Positions 48,161 through 60,921 of a DNA stretch of 64,000 nt are shown one piece after another. Position 1 is the first letter of the stretch; each line of letters begins with the position of its first letter. The DNA comes from Gaetbulibacter sp. S0825. Lineage in GTDB: Bacteria > Bacteroidota > Bacteroidia > Flavobacteriales > Flavobacteriaceae. A program made the position numbers and the translations under genes. The stretch lies in assembly GCF_011777505.1 (NCBI RefSeq), contig NZ_JAATJT010000003.1, positions 62,001 to 126,000 on the forward strand, written 5' to 3'. The notes beneath the pieces are model-generated. The model was not told the origin of the DNA and ran no database searches. It was given only the letters and a program-made list of their open reading frames with translations.

Positions 48161-49819
48161 TTAATAAATATCGTTTGTGGTATTGTAAACGTTGAATTTT
48201 CCTGTTGGGTTTTCTACCCAGTCTCCTTGGATAATTTTTTTAACTTTTAAGGTTTTATCGTTATAAATAACAATAGCACTATTCTCACCCATAAAGTAAG
48301 ACACCCAAACTTCATCCCCTGCTTTATTGTATTCCATGTGAACAGCTCTACCATCAACACCTTCTGGTGCTGGGAGTGTAGCTTTCAACTCTAAAGTATT
48401 TGTATCAAATACATCTACTACAGAATTTAATTCAGCATTAGGATTTAAAGTTCTATCTACCCAAAGGTGCTTGGATTTTGGATGTGATTTTACAAATAAA
48501 GCTCCACCACCATTTCCAGTAGCTTGAACTTCTTTTACAACTGTCCATTGACCTTCGCCAGGATTTGTTTTGATAAAAGATAGTTTGTTTTCACCTAAAT
48601 GAGATGTTACCCAAAGATTACCCAAATCGTTTTTAATATTTGTTCCACGACCAGGATGTGGCTTGATACCAGTTTCAATAATTTTAACTAATTTTTTATT
48701 TGGCACGTCAATAACTACAATTTTATTACTTGCATTGGCAGCCACTAAGAAATAATGTCCTGTAGAATCCCAACCACCATCATGCAAGAATCTAGCTGAA
48801 GGAATTTGAGTAATACCAGGGTTTCTTGGGTCTGTGTAATCTACAATCCAAACCATACCAGTTTCTTTTACATTACAAATCCAAACAGGGTCTGTATGAG
48901 ACGCAACAATTGAAGCAACACGAGCTTCTTCTAAATACTCTTTATCACCATCACAAGCATTTCCAGCAGTAGGAGTCACACTTAATGGCTCTAGTGTTTG
49001 CGCATCTAAAATGGCAATATGACTTGGGCTATATCCACCAAATACTAAGTATTTATCTTCATAACCTCTAAATTTTGAAACCTCAACTGAACGAGCATCA
49101 AAACCTCCTTTAACCTCAGCAACAATAGATGGCGATTTTGTGTAGGTATCAATCATAGTAATTCTACCATCTCTACCAACTGAATAAATATATCTACCAG
49201 AAGCCGATGTTCTTAAAATGTGTACTGCAAATCCTGTTTTTAAAACAGCTAATTGCTCTTTAGTATCACCATCAATAATGGCTACTTTGCCAGCATCTCT
49301 CATAATTACACCAAAGTAATTATCTATATTTCTATTATGTTCTGGCTTGGTTGGTCTATCTGCTACTGGAACAATTAAATTCCAGCTATTGGTGATTTCA
49401 CCAATTCCATAAGGTGGAATTACAGGCGGATCAACTTGAAGGAAACGAGTCATCAACTCTATTTCTTCATCAGTCATAATTCCTTTCCACTCTGGCATTC
49501 CTCCAGGAGTACCATTTTCAATAAATGCTTTAAGACCATCTGTTCCAAACTCTAAGGTACCAGGTTTATCACTTCCTTCAGGTCTAACTGGCAATAAATG
49601 CGTACCAGTTGCCCCTAGTCTACTTGAGCCATGGCAACCTGCACATCTATCAAAGTAGATTTCACTACCTCTTTTCATTTCTTCATCAGAAACTCTAACT
49701 GCCGCTATATCTTCGGAGTCACTTTTAGTTACTGAATAATCCGACCCTCCTTTTTTATCACTTTTGCAACTAAATGTTAAAGCAATAAGAACTATTACTA
49801 AAAATTTTAAGTTTTTCAT
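48161..49819 (-). CDS. nirS: Cytochrome cd1 nitrite reductase, predicted lipoprotein
   Basis: Residues 40-130 form a class I cytochrome c domain with CAGCH (C59, C62, H63); residues 140-552 are the eight-bladed d1-haem propeller. The d1 ligand H200 (GFAVHILR) and the two active-site histidines H346 (FLHDGGWD) and H388 (KPHPGRG) are present, and the end PTGKFNVYNT is as in proteobacterial NirS. It reduces nitrite to nitric oxide in the periplasm. The signal ends in LTFSC18, so it is probably lipid-anchored. No d1-haem synthesis gene (nirE, nirF, nirJ, nirN) is in the window. Confidence 0.95.
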   Translation of the reverse strand: MKNLKFLVIVLIALTFSCKSDKKGGSDYSVTKSDSEDIAAVRVSDEEMKRGSEIYFDRCAGCHGSSRLGATGTHLLPVRPEGSDKPGTLEFGTDGLKAFIENGTPGGMPEWKGIMTDEEIELMTRFLQVDPPVIPPYGIGEITNSWNLIVPVADRPTKPEHNRNIDNYFGVIMRDAGKVAIIDGDTKEQLAVLKTGFAVHILRTSASGRYIYSVGRDGRITMIDTYTKSPSIVAEVKGGFDARSVEVSKFRGYEDKYLVFGGYSPSHIAILDAQTLEPLSVTPTAGNACDGDKEYLEEARVASIVASHTDPVWICNVKETGMVWIVDYTDPRNPGITQIPSARFLHDGGWDSTGHYFLVAANASNKIVVIDVPNKKLVKIIETGIKPHPGRGTNIKNDLGNLWVTSHLGENKLSFIKTNPGEGQWTVVKEVQATGNGGGALFVKSHPKSKHLWVDRTLNPNAELNSVVDVFDTNTLELKATLPAPEGVDGRAVHMEYNKAGDEVWVSYFMGENSAIVIYNDKTLKVKKIIQGDWVENPTGKFNVYNTTNDIY

Positions 49820-49837
49820 TTTATTATTTGATTTTAT

Positions 49838-51178
49838 TTAATCTATTGTTTGCTCTAATGCTTCATCATTAGGTTTTCCATGCTTATAAAAATCTATTAC
49901 ATACAGCACTATGCCTGTTGTAAAAATTGTAGCACATAGAATTAATACGACAAAATGTACACTTATTTCTCCTTGCACTTGCATAAAGTCCATACCGAAT
50001 TTTCTTTCTAAATAGACTTGAGCCACACCAGCGACTCCAAAAGCCACTGTCATACCAATCATACCAATATTAGATAGCCAATAAGCTGCTCGCCCTCTTG
50101 TACTTTGATATAATTTTCGTCCTGTTAAATTTGGTAAAGCATAACTTATTATTGCCAATACTATCATACCGTAAGCTCCCCAGAATGCTAAGTGACCATG
50201 CATTGCAGTAACTAGTGTTCCGTGAGTATATAAGTTTGTTTGTGGTAATGTATGTGCAAAACCTAATAATCCAGCCCCAACAAAGGATACAATAGCAGCT
50301 CCTAAAGTCCAGTATAATGCTAATTTATTAGGATGTTTTTTCTCTCCTTTTCTATACATATTAACTGCAAATAATGCCATTGCTAAGAATGCCAAAGGCT
50401 CAAGTGCTGAGAATATACCACCAACTATTAACCAAATTTTATTTACACCAATGTAATAGTAGTGATGTCCTGTACCTAATACTCCAGATAAGAATGTTAA
50501 TCCAACGATTACATACAGCCATTTTTCTATAACTTCTCTATCTACTCCAGTAAGTTTAATTAATAAGAAAGATAAAATACCTCCCATAATTAACTCCCAA
50601 ACACCTTCTACCCATAAGTGTACAACCCACCATCTAAAAAATGAATCGGTTACTTGACTATCAAATGGCAGCATACCTGGTAAGTATAACAAAGCAGCAA
50701 ACAATAATCCCATAGATAGAACTAATGCTGTTGTTGTTCTTCGTTTTCCTTTAAAAAGTGTGACGAGAATGAGTCCTAAAAATAATAGAACATTTGCTAC
50801 AACCAAGAAATCTAATGGCCTTGGTATTTCTAAAAATTTTCTTCCTTCCCAATAGTTAAAATGGTAACCTACTATAGCAACCACACCAACAACTGCTAAA
50901 CTTATTAATTGAACATAAGCTAATTTTACGCTCACTAATTCGCGTTGAGCTTCTTCAGGAATAATATAATATGCAGCTCCCATAAAACCAGATAATAACC
51001 ATACAACTAACAAATTAGTATGCACAGCTCTAGCTGTGTTAAAAGGAATGAAGTCGTGTAAATTGTCGAGGCCTATTCTAGCAAAACCCATTACAAAGCC
51101 ATATACTATTTGTAATACTAGTAATAGCATTGAAAGGGCAAAAAACCAATAGGCAACTTTTTGTGATTTATATTTCAT
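49838..51178 (-). CDS. norB: Nitric oxide reductase subunit B
   Basis: A 446-residue, 12-helix haem-copper oxidase-like protein of the cNOR type. Ligand regions are intact: HTNLLVVWLLSGFMGAAYY (haem b), HLWVEGVWELIMGGIL (Fe-B His and Glu), TGHHYYYIG (Fe-B His pair) and HGTLVTAMHGHLAFWGAYG. It reduces two NO to nitrous oxide with electrons from NorC, encoded 11 bases upstream. It lacks the quinol-oxidase N-terminal extension of qNOR. Confidence 0.95.
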   Translation of the reverse strand: MKYKSQKVAYWFFALSMLLLVLQIVYGFVMGFARIGLDNLHDFIPFNTARAVHTNLLVVWLLSGFMGAAYYIIPEEAQRELVSVKLAYVQLISLAVVGVVAIVGYHFNYWEGRKFLEIPRPLDFLVVANVLLFLGLILVTLFKGKRRTTTALVLSMGLLFAALLYLPGMLPFDSQVTDSFFRWWVVHLWVEGVWELIMGGILSFLLIKLTGVDREVIEKWLYVIVGLTFLSGVLGTGHHYYYIGVNKIWLIVGGIFSALEPLAFLAMALFAVNMYRKGEKKHPNKLALYWTLGAAIVSFVGAGLLGFAHTLPQTNLYTHGTLVTAMHGHLAFWGAYGMIVLAIISYALPNLTGRKLYQSTRGRAAYWLSNIGMIGMTVAFGVAGVAQVYLERKFGMDFMQVQGEISVHFVVLILCATIFTTGIVLYVIDFYKHGKPNDEALEQTID

Positions 51179-51189
51179 GATTAGTTAGT

Positions 51190-51651
51190 TTAGTTATTGA
51201 TTTTATCTTTTGCTAGTGGAGATACAATTCTATCGAAGCCATTAAGGTCAATTTCGCCTATCCATTCAAAAAAGGCAATCATATCTTCTGCTTCTTGTTC
51301 AGTCATACTATAGGCCACCATTTTTCTTCCGTTTGGCTGCCATGGAACTTCTGACATTAAAATACTTTTAATGACTTCTTCTCCCTGTCCATCATACTTT
51401 TGGTTAAGCCTGTCTATAACCTTAGTTAATTCTGGAGCGTAGTATGCTCCTTCTCCTAATATTGTATGGCAGCCCATACAATTGTTCTCTTCCCAGATTA
51501 TTTTTCCTCGAACAACAGATTCAGTAATATTTTCATGGTTAGATTGATCCTGTGACAACGATAAAGAATACACAGTCAAACCGATGAATACTAAAAATGT
51601 TACCAAGGTACCGCCTAGAAAGAAAGCTCTTGCTTGTTTTTTAGATAACAT
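51190..51651 (-). CDS. norC: Nitric oxide reductase cytochrome c subunit
   Basis: A 153-residue protein with one N-terminal membrane anchor (FFLGGTLVTFLVFIGLTVYSL) and a cytochrome c domain with CMGCH (C58, C61, H62) and a Met ligand in KMVAYSM. It feeds electrons to NorB. It is the first gene of the respiration operon; its promoter carries a TGAC-N4-GTCA box. Confidence 0.95.
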   Translation of the reverse strand: MLSKKQARAFFLGGTLVTFLVFIGLTVYSLSLSQDQSNHENITESVVRGKIIWEENNCMGCHTILGEGAYYAPELTKVIDRLNQKYDGQGEEVIKSILMSEVPWQPNGRKMVAYSMTEQEAEDMIAFFEWIGEIDLNGFDRIVSPLAKDKINN

Positions 51652-51701
51652 GTTAATTGGTTTTTTAGTTTGATTTATAAAAAAGACCTTTTTGTCTTTT
51701 T

Positions 51702-51744
51702 CAAAAGTAACTCACGAAAAAAGTAAAAAACATGACAAAAGTCA
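51702..51744 (-). promoter_or_regulatory. norC promoter with activator box
   Basis: On the minus strand TACTTTTG (51702-51709) is a perfect -7 element. The inverted repeat TGACAAAAGTCA (51733-51744) is centred 36.5 bases from its last base, near -41.5. The transcript would have a leader of about 45 bases. Confidence 0.75.
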
Positions 51745-51845
51745 GTTTAAGATAAAAATGTCTTAAATACTACTGAATTATGTCTTATAATACCTCAACA
51801 AAATTGATAGTTAATTATAAAACTATAATTGCTAAAGAATTGAGC

Positions 51846-51873
51846 ATAAAAAAAGCAGCTATAAAAGCTGCTT
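51846..51873 (-). terminator. Terminator of the RND efflux operon
   Basis: On the minus strand AAGCAGCT pairs with AGCTGCTT around a five-base loop and is followed by a run of seven T. It lies 24 bases after the TolC-family stop codon. The rest of the 245-base gap up to norC holds only the norC promoter. Confidence 0.9.
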
Positions 51874-51896
51874 CTTATGTTTTAACAGTAGCTAAT

Positions 51897-53237
51897 TTAA
51901 AATTCTACATTGAGTAATTCACCACTTAATTGTAAAAGTTCCAGTTCAATTAATTTGGCATCATACTTAGCGTTATTAAAAGCTGTTTGCGTACTTAATA
52001 AATTAATTTGTGCCTGTCGAAATTCTATAGAAGTTACTTGTCCTAATTTGTATCGTTCTTGAGTTCTGTCAAAATTGTTTTGGTTAGTAAGAACATTTTG
52101 TTTTTGTGCCTCAAGTACAAAAAGTGCGTTATTATAAGCTTCAAATGCATTTTTTAGAGTAGTTTCTATTGTTTCTACTTGTTGTTCTTTTAGTATTTTT
52201 TGATTCTCAAGTGCAATTTTAGCATTAGCAACACGTGTTTTAGTATTTCCTCCATCAAATAAATTCCAAGATAAATTGATTCCAGCATTTAAGCCAGTAG
52301 AATTTAATCCTGCTAAAAAAGAAGTTGGTGGGTTAATACTTTTGTTCCACCCATACGAACTTGTTAATGATGCAGTAGGCAAAAAGTTTGATTTGTTAAT
52401 CTTGATATTGAACTCATTTATTGCAATATTCTTTTCACTTTGTTTTAATAGTACATTGTTCTCCTTTGCTTTATCCAATAACTCTTCAAAAGAAATTAAC
52501 GTGGTAAAATTAACATCTGTTTCTACTTCATAATTAATATCATTTTGTATTCCTAACACAATATTTAAATTGCGTTTTGCATTAAAAAATAATTGTCTTG
52601 TTGAAATATAGTTTATACTATCGTTGTTTACATCAACCTCGGCATTTAATAGCTCCAACTTTGTAGATTGACCATACTCATACTGATATTTAGCACGTTC
52701 TAATCGTTGTTTAGAAATTTTTAAAGTTTCCTTTAAATTATTTGTATTCTCAGACAATCTTGCAATTTGAAAATACACACTAAACAATTGTAAATACATG
52801 TTTTCAATAGTTTCACGTGCTTGTAGTTCTGTGAGGTTATATGTTTCCTTTAACTGCTTATAATTATATTTTCTTCCTAAACCATCAAAAATTGTATAAT
52901 TTAAGTTTATAGAAGCATTGAAGCTCTTGGTTTCCGCTCCATTAATATTGGTAATACTTCCGTCTTGTCTTTCAATTTCTTGATTACTATTATTATAATT
53001 TGCACCAGCGCTGGTAGATACAATTGGTAAAAAACCAGAGTTATATACGCTGGAATTATTTTTAGCTATTTCAAGATTATTATTGGCAATTTTTACACCA
53101 TAATTATTCTGTAGAGCTATTTTTAATGCTTCATTCTTGGTCAATATCTCTTGTCCATGAGCTTGTAACAAAGTAAAAGCTAGAAAAGTATATATTAATC
53201 TTTTAGTGTAATTCATCGTTTTCATATTTTGATTCAA
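51897..53237 (-). CDS. TolC family outer membrane efflux protein
   Basis: A signal peptide (TKRLIYTFLAFTLLQAHGQ) and two OEP repeats with long amphipathic coiled helices (NEALKIALQNNYGVKIANNNLEIA; DGGNTKTRVANAKIALE) define a TolC-like channel of about 440 residues. It forms the exit duct for the RND pump encoded upstream. Starts at 53237, 53225 and 53216 are possible; the first two overlap the RND gene, which indicates translational coupling. Confidence 0.9.
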   Translation of the reverse strand: MNQNMKTMNYTKRLIYTFLAFTLLQAHGQEILTKNEALKIALQNNYGVKIANNNLEIAKNNSSVYNSGFLPIVSTSAGANYNNSNQEIERQDGSITNINGAETKSFNASINLNYTIFDGLGRKYNYKQLKETYNLTELQARETIENMYLQLFSVYFQIARLSENTNNLKETLKISKQRLERAKYQYEYGQSTKLELLNAEVDVNNDSINYISTRQLFFNAKRNLNIVLGIQNDINYEVETDVNFTTLISFEELLDKAKENNVLLKQSEKNIAINEFNIKINKSNFLPTASLTSSYGWNKSINPPTSFLAGLNSTGLNAGINLSWNLFDGGNTKTRVANAKIALENQKILKEQQVETIETTLKNAFEAYNNALFVLEAQKQNVLTNQNNFDRTQERYKLGQVTSIEFRQAQINLLSTQTAFNNAKYDAKLIELELLQLSGELLNVEF

Positions 53238-56200
53238 TAATTGCTCTTTCTACTTCTTCTTTTGTGATTTCCCTTCCAGTTATCATCCACTTAAAAAACA
53301 CTTTAACAGAATTAGAAATTGATAACAATAATGGTAACATTACTAAAGTCAATACTGTTGCAATGCCTATTCCGTAAGAGATGGAAACTGCCATTGGTTT
53401 TAAAAATTGTGCTTGCCTACTACCTTCTAACAATAAAGGTGCTAAACCAGCTATTGTTGTTAATGAGGTTAAAAAGATTGCTCTAAAACGTGATTTACCT
53501 GCTTGTACCAAGGCTTCATTATATGTCATACCTTCTTTTAAATAACCATTAAACTTTCCTATTAAGACCAGACCATCATTAACCATAATACCTATTAAAG
53601 CAATAATACCTAACCATGATAAGATATTAATCATAAAACCATGTACCCAATGTCCAAAGGCCACACCTATTAAACTAAATGGTATCATTATCATTAATAA
53701 AAATGGTTGGCTATAGGTTCTAAAGGTAAATGCAATAACCATATAGATTAATATCAATATAATTGGACCAACTAACGCTAGTGAATCTATGGTTTTTGAT
53801 GCTTCCCGATTTTGACCTTCATACAATGCAGAAACGGTTGGATATTTTGATGACAGCTCTGGCATAATTCTATTTCTAACATCATCTAAAACATCGGAAG
53901 CACTGTCATCTGGAGATCTTAAATCCGCTGTCAACTGAATTTCTCTTTTACCTTCTAAGTGGTTAATAGCAACATCACCTCTTTCAATTTTATAGGTTGC
54001 AATTTCTGAAAACGGTACTTTGCTACCAGATGGTGCAATAATCCACATATCATCTAAATCTTTAATAGATGAACGATCTTCTTTTTTATAACGAACCCAA
54101 ACTCTTATTTCGTCCTGTCCTCGTTGAAAACGTTGTGCTTGAAAACCAAAGAAACCTGAACGTACCTGAGCCATTACACTTTGTAGATTTAATCCTAATA
54201 TGTTGGCTTTGTCTTTTAATTCTATTTGTATTTCTTTAATTCCTTCAGGATCGTTATCTGCTACATCCTTCAAAACTGGATTGGCGACTAACTCTGCCTT
54301 AAGCTCTTCTTTTGCTGCTTTAAGTTCTTCAATATTATTTCCTAATAATGATACAGCCACAGGGCTACCTCCAAAATTACCTCCAGAGCCAAAGGTTAAA
54401 CTTTCAACACCATAAATTGTACCTGAAATATCTCGAATCTTGTTTGTTATTTCCTGTGAAGCTAAATCACCCCTCAACTCTCCTGGCAATAAATTAACCG
54501 TTAATGAGGCATTAGAAGTTCCTGGTCCTATTCGCTTTATAACATTTTGAACAACAGATTCATTATTAAATAGATTCTTATCATATTGCTCATTAACTAT
54601 CCATACCTTTTCTTCAATACTTGAAATAATAGAGTCTGTAATTTTTTCATTAGTTCCTTGTGGCATTTCAAGATTTATAGACACAGTATCACTGGCAATT
54701 CTCGGAAAGAACGATGTACCAACAATTCCACCTCCAATGGCACCAATACTAAAAATGAACAATGCTATTGGAATAGCAAACCCTAAAAATTTATTCTTTA
54801 AAAAGAAACGCAAATATGGTACATAAATAGTATCTCTAAGCTTGACCAATCCTTTATCTGCTCCTTCATTTAATCTCCTAAAAAATTTATCAATCCTATT
54901 ATATTTTCTTCCTTTACGTTGTAATGCTTTTGAATGTGCAACGTGAGCTGGAAGAATTATTAAAGCCTCAATCATTGAAACCAATAGAGTTAAAATCACT
55001 ACTGTAGAAACCTCACCGAAAAAATCACCTATTCTTCCATCTAAAAAGAAAAATGTTGAAAATGCTATCATGGTAGTTAATAAGGCTGATACAACTGGTG
55101 GCAATACTTCGATAGTTCCATCAATCGCTGCTCTAATTGGAGATTTTCCTTTTTCGTAGTGATGATAAATGTTTTCACCAATAACAATACCATCATCTAC
55201 TAGAATACCAATAACGATAATCATTCCGAAAAGTGATAACACGTTAATAGTAACTCCCATTTGAGCTGCAAAAATGAACATTCCGAAGAAAGAAATTGGA
55301 ATTCCTACTGCTACCCAAAGTGCTAATCGTGCATTTAAAAATATTGCTAGAAAAAGAAGTACTAATAGAATTCCCATAATAGCATTATTCACTAGCAAAT
55401 CTGTACGTTGTGTTAATGTAATAGAGGAATCACTGGAAATATCTAATTGAACATTATCGTACTGTTGATTAAATTTATGTATATACTTTTTTACCTCTTC
55501 TGCTGAGGCAATCAAATCTTCATTATTCGTGTTACTAATTCCAATACTAATTGCATTTTTACCATTAAAAAAGACTCTGTCTGGTGTTTCGGACCAAGTA
55601 TCCTGAACATCTGCAACATCCTTTAATCTAATAATGTTTCCATTTGGCTCAGCTCTTACAATTATGTTATAAAGTTCATTACCATAATACGATCGGTTTC
55701 TTGCTCTAATTAAATAATCCTCTTCACTTGTCTTTATATTACCACCTGTTATTAAAATATTTGTTCTGCTAACAGCATTGGCGACATCTTGAAAAGATAA
55801 ATTATAAGCTCTTAAATCATTTTCTCTTACAGAAATTGCAATTTCTTCAGCAGGAAACCCAGAAATAGATACTTGTGAAATACCCTCTATCCCTCTTAAA
55901 TCGTTTTCAACTTCTCTTGCATATTGTTTTAAAGTTGTAAGTGGAATATTATCACCACTCAAGGTAAAGCTTATGGTTGGTCTTACCGTTTCTACTTTTG
56001 CAATAACAGGTGGTTCCATACCACTTGGAAACGATGGTACTCTATCTACAGCATTTTTAACATCTGCCAAAACAACATCAATATTCTTTCCTTTTTCTGT
56101 CTCTACACTAATGGTAGCAGCATTTTCCCTAGAAACAGAAGTAACACGTTCTACTCCAACTATTCCCTTTAAATTATCTTCTATCTTTAAAACCACACCT

Positions 56201-56385
56201 TCTTCCATTTCTACTGGAGAAGCTCCTGGGTAAATAAGATTGATTTGTATTAATTTTGAATCGGTTAATGGAAAAAACGATGATTTTATTGACAAAGCTC
56301 CAATAGTTCCAAAAATTATGAATGCAAAAATCAATACATTAACTGCAACGGGAAACTTTATAAAATAACTAATTACCTTTTTCAT
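53203..56385 (-). CDS. RND efflux permease (AcrB/MMPL type)
   Basis: A 1060-residue, 12-helix RND transporter with two large periplasmic loops. The proton-relay region GMIIVIGILVDDGIVIGENIYHH in helix 4 and the second repeat GIMVNDGLVLIGKFN are visible. It exports toxic organic compounds (HAE-type rather than metal-type, as the two Asp in helix 4 suggest). It lies between its adaptor and channel genes in a MarR-regulated operon. Confidence 0.94.
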   Translation of the reverse strand: MKKVISYFIKFPVAVNVLIFAFIIFGTIGALSIKSSFFPLTDSKLIQINLIYPGASPVEMEEGVVLKIEDNLKGIVGVERVTSVSRENAATISVETEKGKNIDVVLADVKNAVDRVPSFPSGMEPPVIAKVETVRPTISFTLSGDNIPLTTLKQYAREVENDLRGIEGISQVSISGFPAEEIAISVRENDLRAYNLSFQDVANAVSRTNILITGGNIKTSEEDYLIRARNRSYYGNELYNIIVRAEPNGNIIRLKDVADVQDTWSETPDRVFFNGKNAISIGISNTNNEDLIASAEEVKKYIHKFNQQYDNVQLDISSDSSITLTQRTDLLVNNAIMGILLVLLFLAIFLNARLALWVAVGIPISFFGMFIFAAQMGVTINVLSLFGMIIVIGILVDDGIVIGENIYHHYEKGKSPIRAAIDGTIEVLPPVVSALLTTMIAFSTFFFLDGRIGDFFGEVSTVVILTLLVSMIEALIILPAHVAHSKALQRKGRKYNRIDKFFRRLNEGADKGLVKLRDTIYVPYLRFFLKNKFLGFAIPIALFIFSIGAIGGGIVGTSFFPRIASDTVSINLEMPQGTNEKITDSIISSIEEKVWIVNEQYDKNLFNNESVVQNVIKRIGPGTSNASLTVNLLPGELRGDLASQEITNKIRDISGTIYGVESLTFGSGGNFGGSPVAVSLLGNNIEELKAAKEELKAELVANPVLKDVADNDPEGIKEIQIELKDKANILGLNLQSVMAQVRSGFFGFQAQRFQRGQDEIRVWVRYKKEDRSSIKDLDDMWIIAPSGSKVPFSEIATYKIERGDVAINHLEGKREIQLTADLRSPDDSASDVLDDVRNRIMPELSSKYPTVSALYEGQNREASKTIDSLALVGPIILILIYMVIAFTFRTYSQPFLLMIMIPFSLIGVAFGHWVHGFMINILSWLGIIALIGIMVNDGLVLIGKFNGYLKEGMTYNEALVQAGKSRFRAIFLTSLTTIAGLAPLLLEGSRQAQFLKPMAVSISYGIGIATVLTLVMLPLLLSISNSVKVFFKWMITGREITKEEVERAIIESKYENDELH

Positions 56386-56388
56386 CTG

Positions 56389-57504
56389 TTATTGCTTGTC
56401 TTCAAATATTTTAACTTGCATACCGTTATATGCTCCTGGAGTGGGTTTAGAAAGCATAAGTGTGCCGTTCTTAACTCCTTTAATAACAGCGCTTTCTGCT
56501 GAAAAATACACAGGTTTAACATCTATAAGTTCTAAAATAGAATCTCTTACAACATATAATTGTTTATTATCTACCAATAACTTTCTAGAAACCTCTATGG
56601 CATCTTTTTCACTTCTGGCTGTTAAGTTTGCCTCCAAATAAGTACCTTCTCTTAAATCTTCATGCGCTACTTGAATAAAAGCCTTAATGGTTTGTGAGGT
56701 TGCATCAACCTTACCGTTTATTCTAATAACTTTTCCAATATATGTTTTAGTTTTATCTAGATTTTGAAGTGTTACCGCATTACCAACTTTTAATAAATCG
56801 GCAAATTCAGCATTAATTGACACCTCCATTTCAAAAATACTTGGGTCAATAAATTCTCCCAATTTTTGGCCAACTCTTACTAAGCTACCTGGAGTCACTA
56901 ATGCCTCAGTCAATACACCTTTATAAGGTGCTCTCAAATTATATTTACTAAGTTTTACCTCTAAATTCTTAACGTTGTAATATGCTGTATTAATCCCTCT
57001 CCCTGAAATAAAATATTTTTCTTTTTCAGAATTAATTTGTGGCAACTCTGGAGTTGATTTGTTTATATCGAAATTATTAAGATACGTTTGCCATTTCTGA
57101 TAGTCGTCTGGGTAATCTAAACGAATATCAGGCATAATTGAGGTAATACTGTTATAGAAATTACTCTTTTGTGACTGAAGATTGGCATAAAACTCATCAC
57201 TATTAATTTTAAGGATAGATTCTCCTCTATTATACATAGTTCCAGCTTTAAACTCTTTAGAGGAAGCTTTTAAAACACCTTGTACTTCTGCATAAAGGTC
57301 AATTTTATGTTTAGCAACTAAATTTCCACTTGTTGTAATTATTATAGGTATTTCTCTATTATTAACCTCTTCAACAAAAACTGTTTTTACAATTTTGTCG
57401 AATTTTGGCTTAGGTCTTTTTTTGTTATCAATTAAATATTTGGCAACAAAGAATGCACCTACTAATAATAAAACCCCTAAAGCGATAGATATAATTTTTC
57501 TCAT
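56389..57504 (-). CDS. RND periplasmic adaptor (HlyD/MFP family)
   Basis: One N-terminal membrane segment, a biotinyl-lipoyl hairpin (VQGVLKASSKEFKAGTMYNRGESILKINSDEF ... YNLRAPYKGVLTEALVTPGSLVRVGQKLGEF), an alpha-helical hairpin and beta-barrel domains identify the adaptor that bridges the RND pump and the TolC channel. It lies 3 bases before the pump gene. Confidence 0.92.
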   Translation of the reverse strand: MRKIISIALGVLLLVGAFFVAKYLIDNKKRPKPKFDKIVKTVFVEEVNNREIPIIITTSGNLVAKHKIDLYAEVQGVLKASSKEFKAGTMYNRGESILKINSDEFYANLQSQKSNFYNSITSIMPDIRLDYPDDYQKWQTYLNNFDINKSTPELPQINSEKEKYFISGRGINTAYYNVKNLEVKLSKYNLRAPYKGVLTEALVTPGSLVRVGQKLGEFIDPSIFEMEVSINAEFADLLKVGNAVTLQNLDKTKTYIGKVIRINGKVDATSQTIKAFIQVAHEDLREGTYLEANLTARSEKDAIEVSRKLLVDNKQLYVVRDSILELIDVKPVYFSAESAVIKGVKNGTLMLSKPTPGAYNGMQVKIFEDKQ

Positions 57505-57514
57505 TTTTAGTCAG

Positions 57515-57979
57515 TTATATAGATTCTATTTTTGAATCGAAATTGTTTTGAATTTTTTTTAAAATCGTTATGATTTGCTTTTTTTCAGAAGCTGCAATAT
57601 TCTTTTCCATTTTAGTAATCATTTTTTTTATCACTGGTTTCGTTAAATGGAAAACTTCTTTACCTTTTTGAGTTAAATAAACATTATTAATTCGCTTGTC
57701 CTCTTTGGATTGTTGTCTTGTTATATACTCTTTCTGTTCCATTTTAGTTAGCAAACGTGTTAAAGATGATTTATTTCTAAGCGTTAAAAATGCTAACTCG
57801 TTTTGACTCAAACCATCGTCATTATGCAGCCTCTTAAGAACAATCATTTGCTCTTTAGTTAAATCAAGCCCATGATCATTAAACAATTCTTGTAGATGAT
57901 ACTCAAGAATTTTTACAGTTTTCCCTAACCAAGGACCTATTGAGTTCTCAAAATCTATATTTACCTCTTCTCTTTTCAT
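57515..57979 (-). CDS. MarR family transcriptional regulator
   Basis: A 154-residue winged-helix protein (LTKEQMIVLKRLHNDDGLSQNELAFLT, LTRLLTKMEQKEYITRQQSKEDKRINNVYLT). It is the first gene of the efflux operon and its own promoter lies over a 46-bp palindrome, so it most likely represses the operon until a toxic ligand binds. The ATG begins four bases after a TACATTTG element, a probable leaderless start. Confidence 0.92.
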   Translation of the reverse strand: MKREEVNIDFENSIGPWLGKTVKILEYHLQELFNDHGLDLTKEQMIVLKRLHNDDGLSQNELAFLTLRNKSSLTRLLTKMEQKEYITRQQSKEDKRINNVYLTQKGKEVFHLTKPVIKKMITKMEKNIAASEKKQIITILKKIQNNFDSKIESI

Positions 57980-57982
57980 ACG

Positions 57983-58037
57983 ACAAATGTAAACAAATAA
58001 TTAAATAGTTGCATATGCAACTATTTAATTATTTGTT
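57983..58037 (-). promoter_or_regulatory. MarR operator: 46-bp perfect palindrome with overlapping promoter
   Basis: Bases 57992-58037 read the same on both strands; the core TAGTTGCATATGCAACTA is the type of site MarR dimers bind. On the minus strand TACATTTG (57983-57990) directly follows, then the ATG at 57979. Occupation of the palindrome would block the efflux operon promoter. Confidence 0.8.
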
Positions 58038-58062
58038 AATTTTTTTATTATATCTTCAAACA

Positions 58063-58105
58063 TGATAAAAGTCAGTTTAAGATATTTAAGTCATAAATAT
58101 CTTTG
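58063..58105 (+). promoter_or_regulatory. Promoter of the copper-receptor operon with activator box
   Basis: TGATAAAAGTCA (58063-58074) is centred 36.5 bases before the last base of TATCTTTG (58098-58105), the same geometry as at norC. The bases around the box (CATGAyAAAAGTCAGTTTAA) are nearly identical to those at 51731-51750. Confidence 0.75.
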
Positions 58106-58109
58106 CAAT

Positions 58110-58493
58110 GTGAAACTTAGCTCCGTAATATTATCATTAACTTTATCTGCATTAATACTATTTAATAGTATGCAAGTATCACTAACATTTGCATATTACG
58201 AAATTGATCCTATTGACTTTATTGAGAGGTTATGTGAGAATTTAGATAAGCCTGAATTAGAATGTAATGGTAAATGTCAGTTGAAAAAAGTAGCAGAAAC
58301 CAATTCTACAGATAATAAAAACGTGCCAAATGTTATTGATTTCAAAGAAATATTACTCTATAAAGAAAGTTCAAACAATTACTTTTTAGTAAAAAATGTA
58401 GAGAAGGTATTCCAAAATTATAGCTACCAAAACTTCTATAACTACCTAAAGTTTTCAGATTGCTTCCATCCACCTCAAAAATCATTCTCATAA
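58110..58493 (+). CDS. Small exported protein with CNGKC motif, partner of the copper-type receptor
   Basis: An ATG at 58062 is open but lies inside the activator box and upstream of the -7 element, so it cannot be transcribed from this promoter. The GTG at 58110, four bases after TATCTTTG, gives a normal signal-like start (KLSSVILSLTLSALILFNS) and about 127 residues. The mature part has CENLDKPELECNGKCQLKK, a Cys cluster found in small proteins encoded before metal TonB receptors in Bacteroidota; metal binding is inferred. It ends 66 bases before the receptor gene. Confidence 0.72.
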   Translation: MKLSSVILSLTLSALILFNSMQVSLTFAYYEIDPIDFIERLCENLDKPELECNGKCQLKKVAETNSTDNKNVPNVIDFKEILLYKESSNNYFLVKNVEKVFQNYSYQNFYNYLKFSDCFHPPQKSFS

Positions 58494-58559
58494 CCCATTT
58501 TTAAGGCTTTTTTAAGCCAAACCCAAAACAATTTCATTTAAAATTTAAAATTTTGAATC

Positions 58560-60656
58560 ATGAGAAAGATTTATGGTATGCTTTTGTGTATGCTAATTTC
58601 AACAATGTCTTTTGCTCAAAATAAGAAAGCAAAAGACACGACAACCCAAAAAACAGTAGAACTGAATAAAGTGATTATTATTGGAAATGTAAAGACAGAT
58701 CCAACACACTCTAAAGTATCAAATAAATATGACGAAAATATAATACAACCAAAAAATGTTGCCGACCTATTTAAGAACATCAATGGTTTTTCAACAATAA
58801 AAAGGGGGAATTATGCTATTGACCCTTCTTTTAGAGCCTCTCAATATGAACAATTAAACGTTCAGTATGATGGTGGGACAAAAGCAATGCATGCTTGCCC
58901 AAATAGAATGGATCCTATTACAACTCACATTATTCCTGAGGAAATTGCCAAAATTGAAATTATTAAAGGACCATACACTGTTAGATATGGAACTACTTTT
59001 GGCGGTATTATTAATATGGTGACTAAAACTCCAGGAATTGATGACTATGGCTTTCATGGTAATGCATCTTTTGGATATGAAGACAATGGAAATTCTATTT
59101 CTAATATGCTAGCTCTTAAGTATGCTTCAGAAAAATATGATTTTACAGTTAATGGAGGCTATAAAGATTTTGGTAACTATAAAGATGGTTCAGACTTAGA
59201 GATTCCTTCATCATTTAGAAGTACGGATTATGGGGTTAAGTTTGGCTATAACTTATCAGAAAGCGAACGTGTTCAAGCACATTGGCGACAATCTTTTGGT
59301 AGAGATGTTCTACATGCAGGTTTACCTATGGATACAGATTATGATAACAGTAGTATTCTTTCACTAGATTATAAAAAAGAATATACAAACAGTAAGGTTA
59401 AAAGCTTAAGTAGCAAACTATACTATAGTTATGTTGATCACTTAATGACCAACTTTAAAAGACCAAACTTTATGATGGTTGAAGCTGAATCTGGTGTAGA
59501 GGCTACAACTGCTGGAGGTAAAATAGAGCTAAAAATTGTACCAAACGAAAATTGGCAACTGTATAGTGGTCTTGATGCAACTTACATTGGACGAGAAGGT
59601 AATAGAAACCGTTTAGTGAAAATAATGAATGGAAATCCTTTACCTATGCCAATGTCTTTTACAGACAAGATTTGGCAGGATTCACAAATAACAGATATAG
59701 GAGTATTTACCGAAGCAAAGTGGTTTGCGAGCAATTCTACCATTTTTAATTTCGGATTGCGCTACAACGCTGTTATTAGCGATATAAAAGATCCTGCCGT
59801 TAATTTTGCAGCGATGTATGATTTAGAAAAACGGACAGAAGGTAATTTAAGTGGAACTGTAAGTCTTAAAAAGGTTATTTCACCAGATTTTACTTTAGAA
59901 ATAGCTTATGGTAGAGGTGTTCGTTCAGCAAGTATGGTTGAGCGCTTTATAAACCATTTTACAGTTGGTCAAGACCCTTATGAATATGTTGGTAACCCAA
60001 ACTTAAAGGCAGAAGTCAATAACCAATTTGAAATTGGATTTAAAGGCAAAAAGGATTTAACGAACGGTTTTAATAAACTTACTTATTCTTCATCATTTTA
60101 TTATTCATTTTTCGAGAACTATATTGTTGGTATTGTTGATGAATCTTTAAATAGATTGTATATGCCAATGTTAGAACCAAGACACCCTAAAGTATTTAGA
60201 AATTTAGATGAAGCATATAAAACAGGATTAGAAGCTTCGATGAAACTTGAGTTTATGGACAATTTCTTTTTAAAAGCAGATATCGCTTATGTTTATGCAA
60301 AAAACAAAGATTTAAAAGAATCGCTTCCACTTACTCCTCCTCTAACAACCAAACTAGGCTTTGGATTCGAGAAAAAGAAATTTTGGGCAAATGCAACTTT
60401 TAACTTAGTTTGCAAACAAGATAAAATTGCCGAAAGCTTTGGTGAAACTTATACAAAAGGCTATGAAACGTTAGATATTCGTGTTGGACTAAAACCAATA
60501 AAAAATATAACAGTAGGTTTGGCTGCTATTAATCTTTTTGATCAAACCTACAATGACCATTTAAGTTTTTCATTTAACAACCAATCGGGTTTAGGTAGAG
60601 TCCCTATTAATGAACCTGGAAGAAACTTAACTGCTTTCTTGCAATACAAGTTTTAA
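58560..60656 (+). CDS. TonB-dependent receptor of the OprC/NosA copper type
   Basis: Signal peptide, plug and 22-strand barrel ending QYKF. The plug has HACPNRMDP: C113 and M117 form the CxxxM pair that binds copper in Pseudomonas OprC, and IEIIKGPYTVRYGTTFGGIINMVTKTPG is the usual plug end. Met-rich segments (NFMMVEAESG, PLPMPMSF) fit copper use. NosA/OprC proteins supply copper to nitrous oxide reductase, but nosZ is not in the window. The promoter shares its box with norC, linking copper uptake to NO respiration. Confidence 0.82.
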   Translation: MRKIYGMLLCMLISTMSFAQNKKAKDTTTQKTVELNKVIIIGNVKTDPTHSKVSNKYDENIIQPKNVADLFKNINGFSTIKRGNYAIDPSFRASQYEQLNVQYDGGTKAMHACPNRMDPITTHIIPEEIAKIEIIKGPYTVRYGTTFGGIINMVTKTPGIDDYGFHGNASFGYEDNGNSISNMLALKYASEKYDFTVNGGYKDFGNYKDGSDLEIPSSFRSTDYGVKFGYNLSESERVQAHWRQSFGRDVLHAGLPMDTDYDNSSILSLDYKKEYTNSKVKSLSSKLYYSYVDHLMTNFKRPNFMMVEAESGVEATTAGGKIELKIVPNENWQLYSGLDATYIGREGNRNRLVKIMNGNPLPMPMSFTDKIWQDSQITDIGVFTEAKWFASNSTIFNFGLRYNAVISDIKDPAVNFAAMYDLEKRTEGNLSGTVSLKKVISPDFTLEIAYGRGVRSASMVERFINHFTVGQDPYEYVGNPNLKAEVNNQFEIGFKGKKDLTNGFNKLTYSSSFYYSFFENYIVGIVDESLNRLYMPMLEPRHPKVFRNLDEAYKTGLEASMKLEFMDNFFLKADIAYVYAKNKDLKESLPLTPPLTTKLGFGFEKKKFWANATFNLVCKQDKIAESFGETYTKGYETLDIRVGLKPIKNITVGLAAINLFDQTYNDHLSFSFNNQSGLGRVPINEPGRNLTAFLQYKF

Positions 60657-60663
60657 ACAACAA

Positions 60664-60694
60664 AAAAAAGAGGACAAATTTTGTCCTCTTTTTT
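60664..60694 (+). terminator. Terminator of the copper-receptor operon
   Basis: GAGGACAA pairs with TTGTCCTC around ATT, flanked by six A before and six T after. It lies just after the receptor stop. Confidence 0.9.
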
Positions 60695-60711
60695 GTTTTA
60701 AATAAATCAAT

Positions 60712-60852
60712 CTATTCCTGATTTTTATCTTTTTTCCCACTACTCATAAAAGAAATCAACACTATAATTAATATTAAACAGATTAGACCAAAAACTGCCA
60801 TCATAATTACGCCATTGCTCCAATCGTATAATGCAATACTACTACTTATCAT
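60712..60852 (-). CDS. 46-residue single-helix membrane protein
   Basis: Reading minus from the ATG at 60852: MISSSIALYDWSNGVIMMA, then a hydrophobic helix (VFGLICLILIIVLISFM) and a charged tail (SSGKKDKNQE) before TAG. It has its own promoter with a TGACAAAAGTCA box and a 20-base leader, so it is very likely real. The short outside stretch, one helix and basic tail recall small accessory subunits of respiratory complexes, but I know no family for it. It converges on the copper receptor gene. Confidence 0.75.
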   Translation of the reverse strand: MISSSIALYDWSNGVIMMAVFGLICLILIIVLISFMSSGKKDKNQE

Positions 60853-60878
60853 ATCTTAAATTGTTACTGTTATTTTTT

Positions 60879-60921
60879 CAAAAATATATGTAATGTGCTT
60901 AATATTTTATGACTTTTGTCA
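60879..60921 (-). promoter_or_regulatory. Promoter of the 46-residue protein with activator box
   Basis: On the minus strand TATTTTTG (60879-60886) is a perfect -7 element and TGACAAAAGTCA (60910-60921) is centred 36.5 bases from its last base, as at norC and 58063. Confidence 0.75.

Follow-up and report, generated by a model that had tools for sequence, protein, structure and literature searches.

In the genome of Gaetbulibacter sp. S0825, a member of the family Flavobacteriaceae, the stretch of 64,000 nucleotides (nt) analysed here (the window) contains three promoters with an identical arrangement of a palindromic box and a -7 element, located upstream of the norC operon, of an operon with an OprC-like copper receptor gene and of a gene for a membrane protein of 46 residues. 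These promoters are probably class II targets of one FNR-like factor of Flavobacteriaceae; the candidate for this role is encoded outside the window, next to genes of the cbb3 oxidase. The promoter elements are as follows.

51744-51733, minus strand: predicted activator box of norC, TGACTTTTGTCA, centred at -41.5 relative to the predicted start 51697
51709-51702, minus strand: -7 element of norC, TACTTTTG, matching TAnnTTTG
58063-58074, plus strand: predicted activator box of the copper-receptor operon, TGATAAAAGTCA, centred at -41.5 relative to the predicted start 58110
58098-58105, plus strand: -7 element of the copper-receptor operon, TATCTTTG, matching TAnnTTTG
60921-60910, minus strand: predicted activator box of the 46-residue gene, TGACAAAAGTCA, centred at -41.5 relative to the predicted start 60874
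60886-60879, minus strand: -7 element of the 46-residue gene, TATTTTTG, matching TAnnTTTG

The coordinates given for these boxes and octamers in an earlier note on this DNA proved correct: in all three promoters the gap between box and TAnnTTTG is 23 nt, and the box centre lies 36.5 nt from the last base of the -7 element. In the direction of its own transcript, the centre of the norC box is TTTT rather than AAAA, which is trivial for a palindrome. In the start-site map of Flavobacterium psychrophilum, the TAnnTTTG -7 box occupies positions -12 to -5 (PMC9723704), which places the dyad centres of the window boxes at -41.5, the position of class II activators. The proposal that a class II Crp/Fnr activator acts at this position is supported by this map and by the comparative data below.

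Spacing of the box and the -7 element

The box core TGAYN4RTCA by itself was rejected as evidence, since its counts are near expectation: four were found in the window against 4.6 expected, and the whole genome has 230, compared with 195 of the reversed form. The argument accordingly rests on the spacing. A search of the 3.155-Mb genome for TGAYN4RTCA-N{5,35}-TAnnTTTG gave 30 matches, compared with 8 for the reversed control; 16 of them have a gap of 23 nt, and the other 14 are scattered over ten gaps with at most three in each (6 (two), 9, 12, 19, 24, 26, 27, 28 (two), 30 and 33 (three)). With a background of 14 matches over 30 gaps, the Poisson estimate for 16 matches in a single gap is about 2e-19. 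When the scan was narrowed to gaps of 20-26 nt, 16 of the 18 matches were at 23 nt, and the reversed control gave two. The pile-up at a fixed distance from TAnnTTTG, which the earlier note had proposed to look for genome-wide, is therefore present. Two of the 16 matches (L006 and L007) lie inside coding sequence, are probably chance matches and were left out of the targets, as was L015 (gap 26); the assignment of L003, L008, L009, L013 and L014 is uncertain.

The same geometry was found in a set of 40 genomes from the genus, family and order of Gaetbulibacter sp. S0825, comprising its own genome (G000) and 39 relatives. The pattern TGAYN4RTCA-N23-TAnnTTTR occurs 497 times in this set and its reversed form 18 times. 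The stricter pattern TGAYAAAAGTCA-N{8,38}-TAnnTTTG has 28 matches in the 39 relatives (16 at gap 23, three at gap 24, one at gap 22 and eight elsewhere) and, together with four matches in the own genome, 32 in total against two for the reversed control. Chance as the source of the geometry was rejected on the basis of the spacing peak and the reversed controls.

Predicted target genes and their conservation

The genes downstream of the three window promoters are listed below.

48161-51651, minus strand: open reading frames (ORFs) of norC, norB and cytochrome cd1 nitrite reductase (Pfam Cytochrom_C, COX1 and Cytochrom_D1)
58110-58493, plus strand: first gene of the copper operon, with a probable GTG start at 58110 and no Pfam family
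58560-60656, plus strand: OprC-like TonB-dependent copper receptor with CxxxM and HxM copper ligands
60712-60852, minus strand: single-span membrane protein of 46 residues, of a conserved family without a name (match to DUF2929 below the cut-off)

Judging by their spacing, norC, norB and the cytochrome cd1 gene would be the leading genes of one operon under the norC promoter. The ORF of the first copper-operon gene, as delimited mechanically, opens at 58062, inside the box, and the GTG at 58110 is its predicted start. A GTG is located exactly at the predicted +1 of this operon in the window and in the relatives G001 and G052, and an ATG at +2 in G103, which suggests a leaderless message. The receptor matches OprC with an expectation value (E) of 2.4e-40, and its CPNRM and DHLM stretches align with the copper ligands of OprC; the CxxxM-HxM pattern was found by a script search in 24 of 28 loci homologous to this receptor.

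Names of downstream genes, unless supported by Pfam or homology, were assigned by reading the sequences. In the genome of Gaetbulibacter sp. S0825, fixed-gap sites precede the norC operon, the copper-receptor operon, the 46-residue gene, a norE/norF-like pair, genes for ferredoxin-NADP reductase and ferredoxin, a universal stress protein gene, ccoS-ccoNO, ccoI, the cytochrome c gene heading the nosZ region and, with a weaker -7 element, a PPK2-like pair. In relatives, the strict box was also found before hemN-like, nirK-like, nitric-oxide-reductase-like, phosphotransacetylase-like and YceI-like genes. The predicted targets nor, nos, cco, ccoI and norEF-like correspond to an anaerobic and microaerobic respiration regulon of the FNR type. 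The regulon thus appears broader than in the earlier note, with the addition of nos, norEF-like, cbb3 and ccoI genes, an extension supported by the predicted sites. For the Rrf2 gene, which diverges from the nosZ region, the gap to TAnnTTTG is 24 rather than 23 nt in all three genomes seen (L005 in G000, L055 in G003 and L056 in G002).

Conservation upstream of individual genes was followed in 149 genomes of the family, with counts that ignore shared ancestry. The gene norC was found in 26 of them, the own genome included; three weakest of 30 matches (29-36% identity) were excluded, leaving 27 loci. The box is present at 22 of these, with TAnnTTTG at gap 23 in 11 and at gap 22 in one, and TAnnTTTA stands in the same register at four more; at four of the five loci lacking the box, the upstream letters read like the end of another gene. 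The norC leader of the window (51651-51697) contains AAAAAGAC-AAAAAG-GTCTTTTT, which could form a small hairpin; ten of the 27 loci have a comparable AAAGAY..RTCTTT pair no more than 60 nt from the start.

OprC-like receptors were found in at least 28 of the 149 genomes, a lower bound because at most seven candidates per genome were scored. In the 28 loci, TAnnTTTG is located at gap 23 in 15 and at gap 22 or 24 in three, TAnnTTTA at gap 23 in one, and no site was found in nine. The comparison of norC and oprC-like upstream regions proposed in the earlier note thus showed retention of the arrangement in relatives.

The 46-residue protein was matched in 48 of the 149 genomes, the weakest matches possibly being due to chance. 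It is over-represented in genomes with an OprC-like receptor (21 of 28, compared with 27 of 121 others), and its gene adjoins the receptor gene in several of them. The box was found at 11 of the 15 loci examined, with TAnnTTTG in register at four and TAnnTTTA at six. The family has the pattern x-W-x-N-G-x-x-M-I-A-x-F and one membrane span. The gene ccoS is visible in 54 of 80 loci of the regulator described below; 53 of the 54 have the box, and all 53 have NAnnTTT at gap 23.

The geometry accordingly recurs across Flavobacteriaceae upstream of norC, oprC, the 46-residue gene, ccoI and ccoS. The connection between NO respiration, copper uptake and a small membrane protein made in the earlier note has been strengthened: the box and spacing are kept in many other genera for all three.

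From these five genes 175 sites were collected irrespective of their outer bases, many of them from the same genomes; sites of norC, oprC and the 46-residue gene were accepted only if a -7-like octamer stood close to register 23. TGA is preceded by A in 138, C in 25, G in 12 and T in none, and TCA is followed by T in 159, C in 10, G in 6 and A in none. The consensus of the box is ATGAYN4RTCAT, and none of the 175 sites has the outer T or the outer A of TTGATN4ATCAA, the classical site of FNR.

Proposed FNR-like regulator and its operator

The genome of Gaetbulibacter sp. S0825 contains 11 genes with a cyclic nucleotide-monophosphate (cNMP)-binding domain. One of them (contig C4:144663-145337), divergent from ccoI, adjoins ccoS-ccoNO and is the proposed regulator of the window promoters. 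Its ortholog (E < 1e-49) is present in 28 of the 40 genomes. TGAYAAAAGTCA with TAnnTTTG at a gap of 22-24 nt was found in 15 of these 28 genomes and in none of the 12 without the ortholog (Fisher P 0.001, ignoring ancestry). Looser fixed-gap sites number 4-36 per genome in the 28 genomes with the ortholog and 0-3 in 10 of the 12 without it.

By sequence the protein is related to FNR, aligning with solved FNR at E 9e-19 over residues 4-222. FNR of Escherichia coli has three N-terminal cysteines and one in the beta-roll (C20, C23, C29 and C122). Cysteines C4, C7, C53 and C106 of the regulator are conserved in 28 of 28 orthologs and in all 80 named loci (L091-L170); C29 and C59 of the regulator are conserved in 80 and 79 of the 80 named loci, respectively, and neither is kept in the wider set. 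In the alignment, C4, C7 and C106 face cysteines of FNR, C53 faces an alanine, and the remaining cysteine of FNR lies opposite Asn at residue 13. In the recognition helix, the regulator has T-E-S-A-I-R where FNR has V-E-T-I-S-R, with isoleucine in place of serine; as judged from the biochemistry of FNR, the loss of this serine may explain the loss of the outer T of the box. A structure model of the regulator, built with 48 sequences, has a mean predicted local distance difference test (pLDDT) score of 80.

The regulator gene itself is associated with the box. TGAYN4RTCA was found upstream of it in 75 of the 80 named loci, with NAnnTTTG at gap 23 on the ccoI side in 73 of the 75. On the side of the regulator gene, 36 cases of TAnnTTTG were counted at gaps 8-11, gap 9 accounting for 26 of them; the gap-9 match in the own genome noted above is this promoter. 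In the wider set (L061-L088), 24 of 28 loci have the box and 19 of these 24 have NAnnTTTG at gap 23 on the divergent side; in G006, G016 and G023, TAnnTTTG is also found at gap 23 toward the regulator gene. A gap of 9 nt puts the box centre near -27.5, within the core promoter of the regulator gene, and autorepression is proposed there for this reason; a single operator may thus mediate repression of the regulator gene by its own product and activation of ccoI on the other side.

In the proposed mechanism, a dimer of the FNR-like protein would bind ATGAYN4RTCAT centred at -41.5 and recruit RNA polymerase to promoters with a TAnnTTTG -7 element. Falling oxygen would in this way switch on the respiration of NO and nitrous oxide, high-affinity respiration of oxygen, copper uptake of the OprC type and small membrane proteins, the signal being received by an iron-sulfur cluster presumably held by C4, C7, C106 and the relocated C53. 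Control of all three window promoters by this single regulator is an inference.

Probable second regulon and assignment of the window promoters

A relaxed fixed-gap pattern gave 41 matches in the own genome and 5 for its reversed form. Of these, 18 lie within about 54 kb (C4:306949-361181; L261-L263), upstream of stress-type genes. Over 64 kb of DNA at this place, 16 TAnnTTTR sites lie at gap 23, and no other gap between 0 and 45 nt has more than one. The island genes, named by reading, encode universal stress proteins, chaperone-like, CBS and peroxiredoxin-like proteins, a sensor kinase and the following hybrid regulator.

C4:324111-325163: hybrid protein with receiver, cNMP-binding and helix-turn-helix domains and the FNR-like recognition helix TETLIR

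Fixed-gap TAnnTTTR sites also surround the hybrid gene in G001 (nine in 60 kb) and G012 (seven in 80 kb). The island looks like a physically clustered second regulon.

Several observations weigh against the assignment of the window promoters to the regulator beside the cco genes. The main caution is that the spacing rule serves more than one Crp/Fnr protein: given 11 cNMP-domain genes and an island of 16 sites with the same spacing around the hybrid, spacing alone cannot identify the regulator. G012 and G028, both without the ortholog, carry 24 and 11 fixed-gap sites, and most of the 12 genomes that lack it are small and only distantly related; the comparisons take no account of shared ancestry. 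The regulator does not reproduce the cysteine pattern of FNR, the third N-terminal cysteine being missing and the invariant C53 being present instead, and its model is of low confidence at the N terminus (pLDDT 57-63 over the first 20 residues). One site of the own genome outside the 175-site set, L008, has the classical TTGAT..ATCAA.

An unlikely alternative is that the FNR-like protein is the correct regulator but senses NO, thiol redox state or cysteine-bound zinc rather than oxygen by means of an iron-sulfur cluster. The fourth cysteine is off the FNR position, and 2gau, the solved relative with the lowest E-value (8e-30), is aligned only from residue 35 onward and has non-matching residues opposite C53 and C106; several targets, moreover, handle nitric oxide. 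Against this, three of the four cysteines align with those of FNR, and the presence of cbb3 oxidase genes among the targets suits low oxygen.

It is less probable still that another Crp/Fnr protein, foremost the hybrid, acts at the boxes of the window, with the signal arriving via a histidine kinase and not an iron-sulfur cluster. Its recognition helix, its location amid class II-spaced sites and the genome G012, which has the hybrid and lacks the proposed regulator yet carries its 24 sites, would fit this explanation. However, TGATnTATATCA with TAnnTTTA is the predominant type in the island and differs from the window type, TGAYAAAAGTCA with TAnnTTTG; no TGAYAAAAGTCA-TAnnTTTG match was found in G012, and it is the proposed regulator, not the hybrid, that adjoins the cco genes and has the box in its own intergenic region.

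Shared descent of the norC and copper boxes

Two of the three window boxes lie within a direct repeat, the copies of which are separated by an efflux cassette.

51728-51754, plus strand: left copy of a 27-nt direct repeat, with the norC box inside, 96% identity to the right copy
58058-58084, plus strand: right copy of the repeat, holding the copper box, 96% identity to the left copy
51897-57979, minus strand: MarR, membrane-fusion, RND and TolC-like genes (named by reading), separating the two copies

The left copy retains only the -7 element of norC and the right copy only that of the copper operon. In relatives without the MarR-RND cassette between the promoters, one bidirectional box is kept: in G103 and G052 a single palindrome is flanked on either side by TAnnTTTG at 23 nt, toward norC and toward the copper operon, and G001 has the same bidirectional palindrome, the receptor gene on its copper side not being found. 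The norC box and the copper box are accordingly duplicates of a single site and not independent events; most simply, duplication of the operator accompanied the arrival of the efflux cassette.

The statement of the earlier note that the geometry is hard to obtain by chance stands owing to the peak of 16 of 30 matches at gap 23 against 8 reversed; given the repeat, the three sites are not three independent coincidences. An explanation of the geometry by chance plus duplication, with one site copied along with the cassette and one coincidence, draws on this repeat and on the lack of enrichment of the box alone in the window, and is barely credible, its full form being already refuted by the genome-wide spacing peak and the excess of 497 matches over 18 in 40 genomes; the conservation at five unrelated genes also speaks against it. 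A perfect 46-nt inverted repeat at 57992-58037, between the MarR gene and the copper promoter, is perhaps a MarR operator.

Comparison with known systems

The flavobacterial system resembles FNR, ANR and FnrL of Proteobacteria in having a Crp/Fnr protein, a dyad at -41.5, a TGAY..RTCA core and denitrification and cbb3 targets; it differs in the TAnnTTTG -7 element, the absence of the outer T..A, the relocated C53 and the isoleucine in place of the helix serine. With DNR and NnrR it shares nir, nor and nos genes under FNR-like boxes, the DNR consensus being CTTGATnnnnATCAAG (PMC1274295). The outer bases differ, however, and the regulator, with its four invariant cysteines, is nearer to FNR: it matches solved DNR at E 4.8e-8 and FNR at E 9e-19. 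Within the same phylum, HcpR2 of Bacteroides and others is likewise a Crp/Fnr protein, with a nitrosative response; the portion of the same source that was seen covers Bacteroides only via HcpR2, with the motif GTAACnnnnGTTAC and, in most Bacteroides, a regulon of hcp alone (PMC1274295). The motif GTAACN4GTTAC was not found in the flavobacterial boxes, which are TGAYN4RTCA, and both HcpR2 and DNR sites were rejected on sequence as the identity of the boxes.

The window receptor belongs with OprC and NosA as a homolog with CxxxM-HxM in a TonB-dependent barrel. These two receptors are reported to be expressed or induced anaerobically (PMC8610252). Unlike them, the window receptor gene carries a predicted activator box, and in some relatives one box is shared with norC. 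The cbb3 oxidase is induced under oxygen limitation in F. psychrophilum (PMC9723704). In a 2021 study, the CRP/FNR homolog of its Flavobacteriales genome was placed near MalR, in a carbon-responsive group, and the Bacteroides MalR matrix was used for the genome search (PMC8510549). By title or abstract, no FNR-type regulon of Flavobacteriaceae was found among the matches listed in the open-licence literature, which does not prove its absence. The arrangement is real and well supported, and it is best explained by a known mechanism, class II activation, with a variant sensor and a variant box, in a lineage for which no description was found.

Biological meaning

Flavobacteriia may, tentatively, possess their own branch of oxygen regulators, though the odds fall a little short of even. 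In such a branch the fourth cluster ligand would have moved out of the N-terminal loop to C53 of the beta-roll, the shifted box ATGAYN4RTCAT would score badly in classical FNR matrices, and one operator would both activate ccoI at -41.5 and block the promoter of the regulator itself; a paralogous receiver-Crp hybrid would serve a parallel, physically clustered stress island in which the spacing is the same.

Denitrification genes are present in many Flavobacteriaceae, and for the regulon described here a specific candidate regulator can now be proposed. It is a natural variant for asking in what ways the cluster of FNR can be held. The fixed distance to TAnnTTTG is a rule usable on any flavobacterial genome and predicts start sites to the base.

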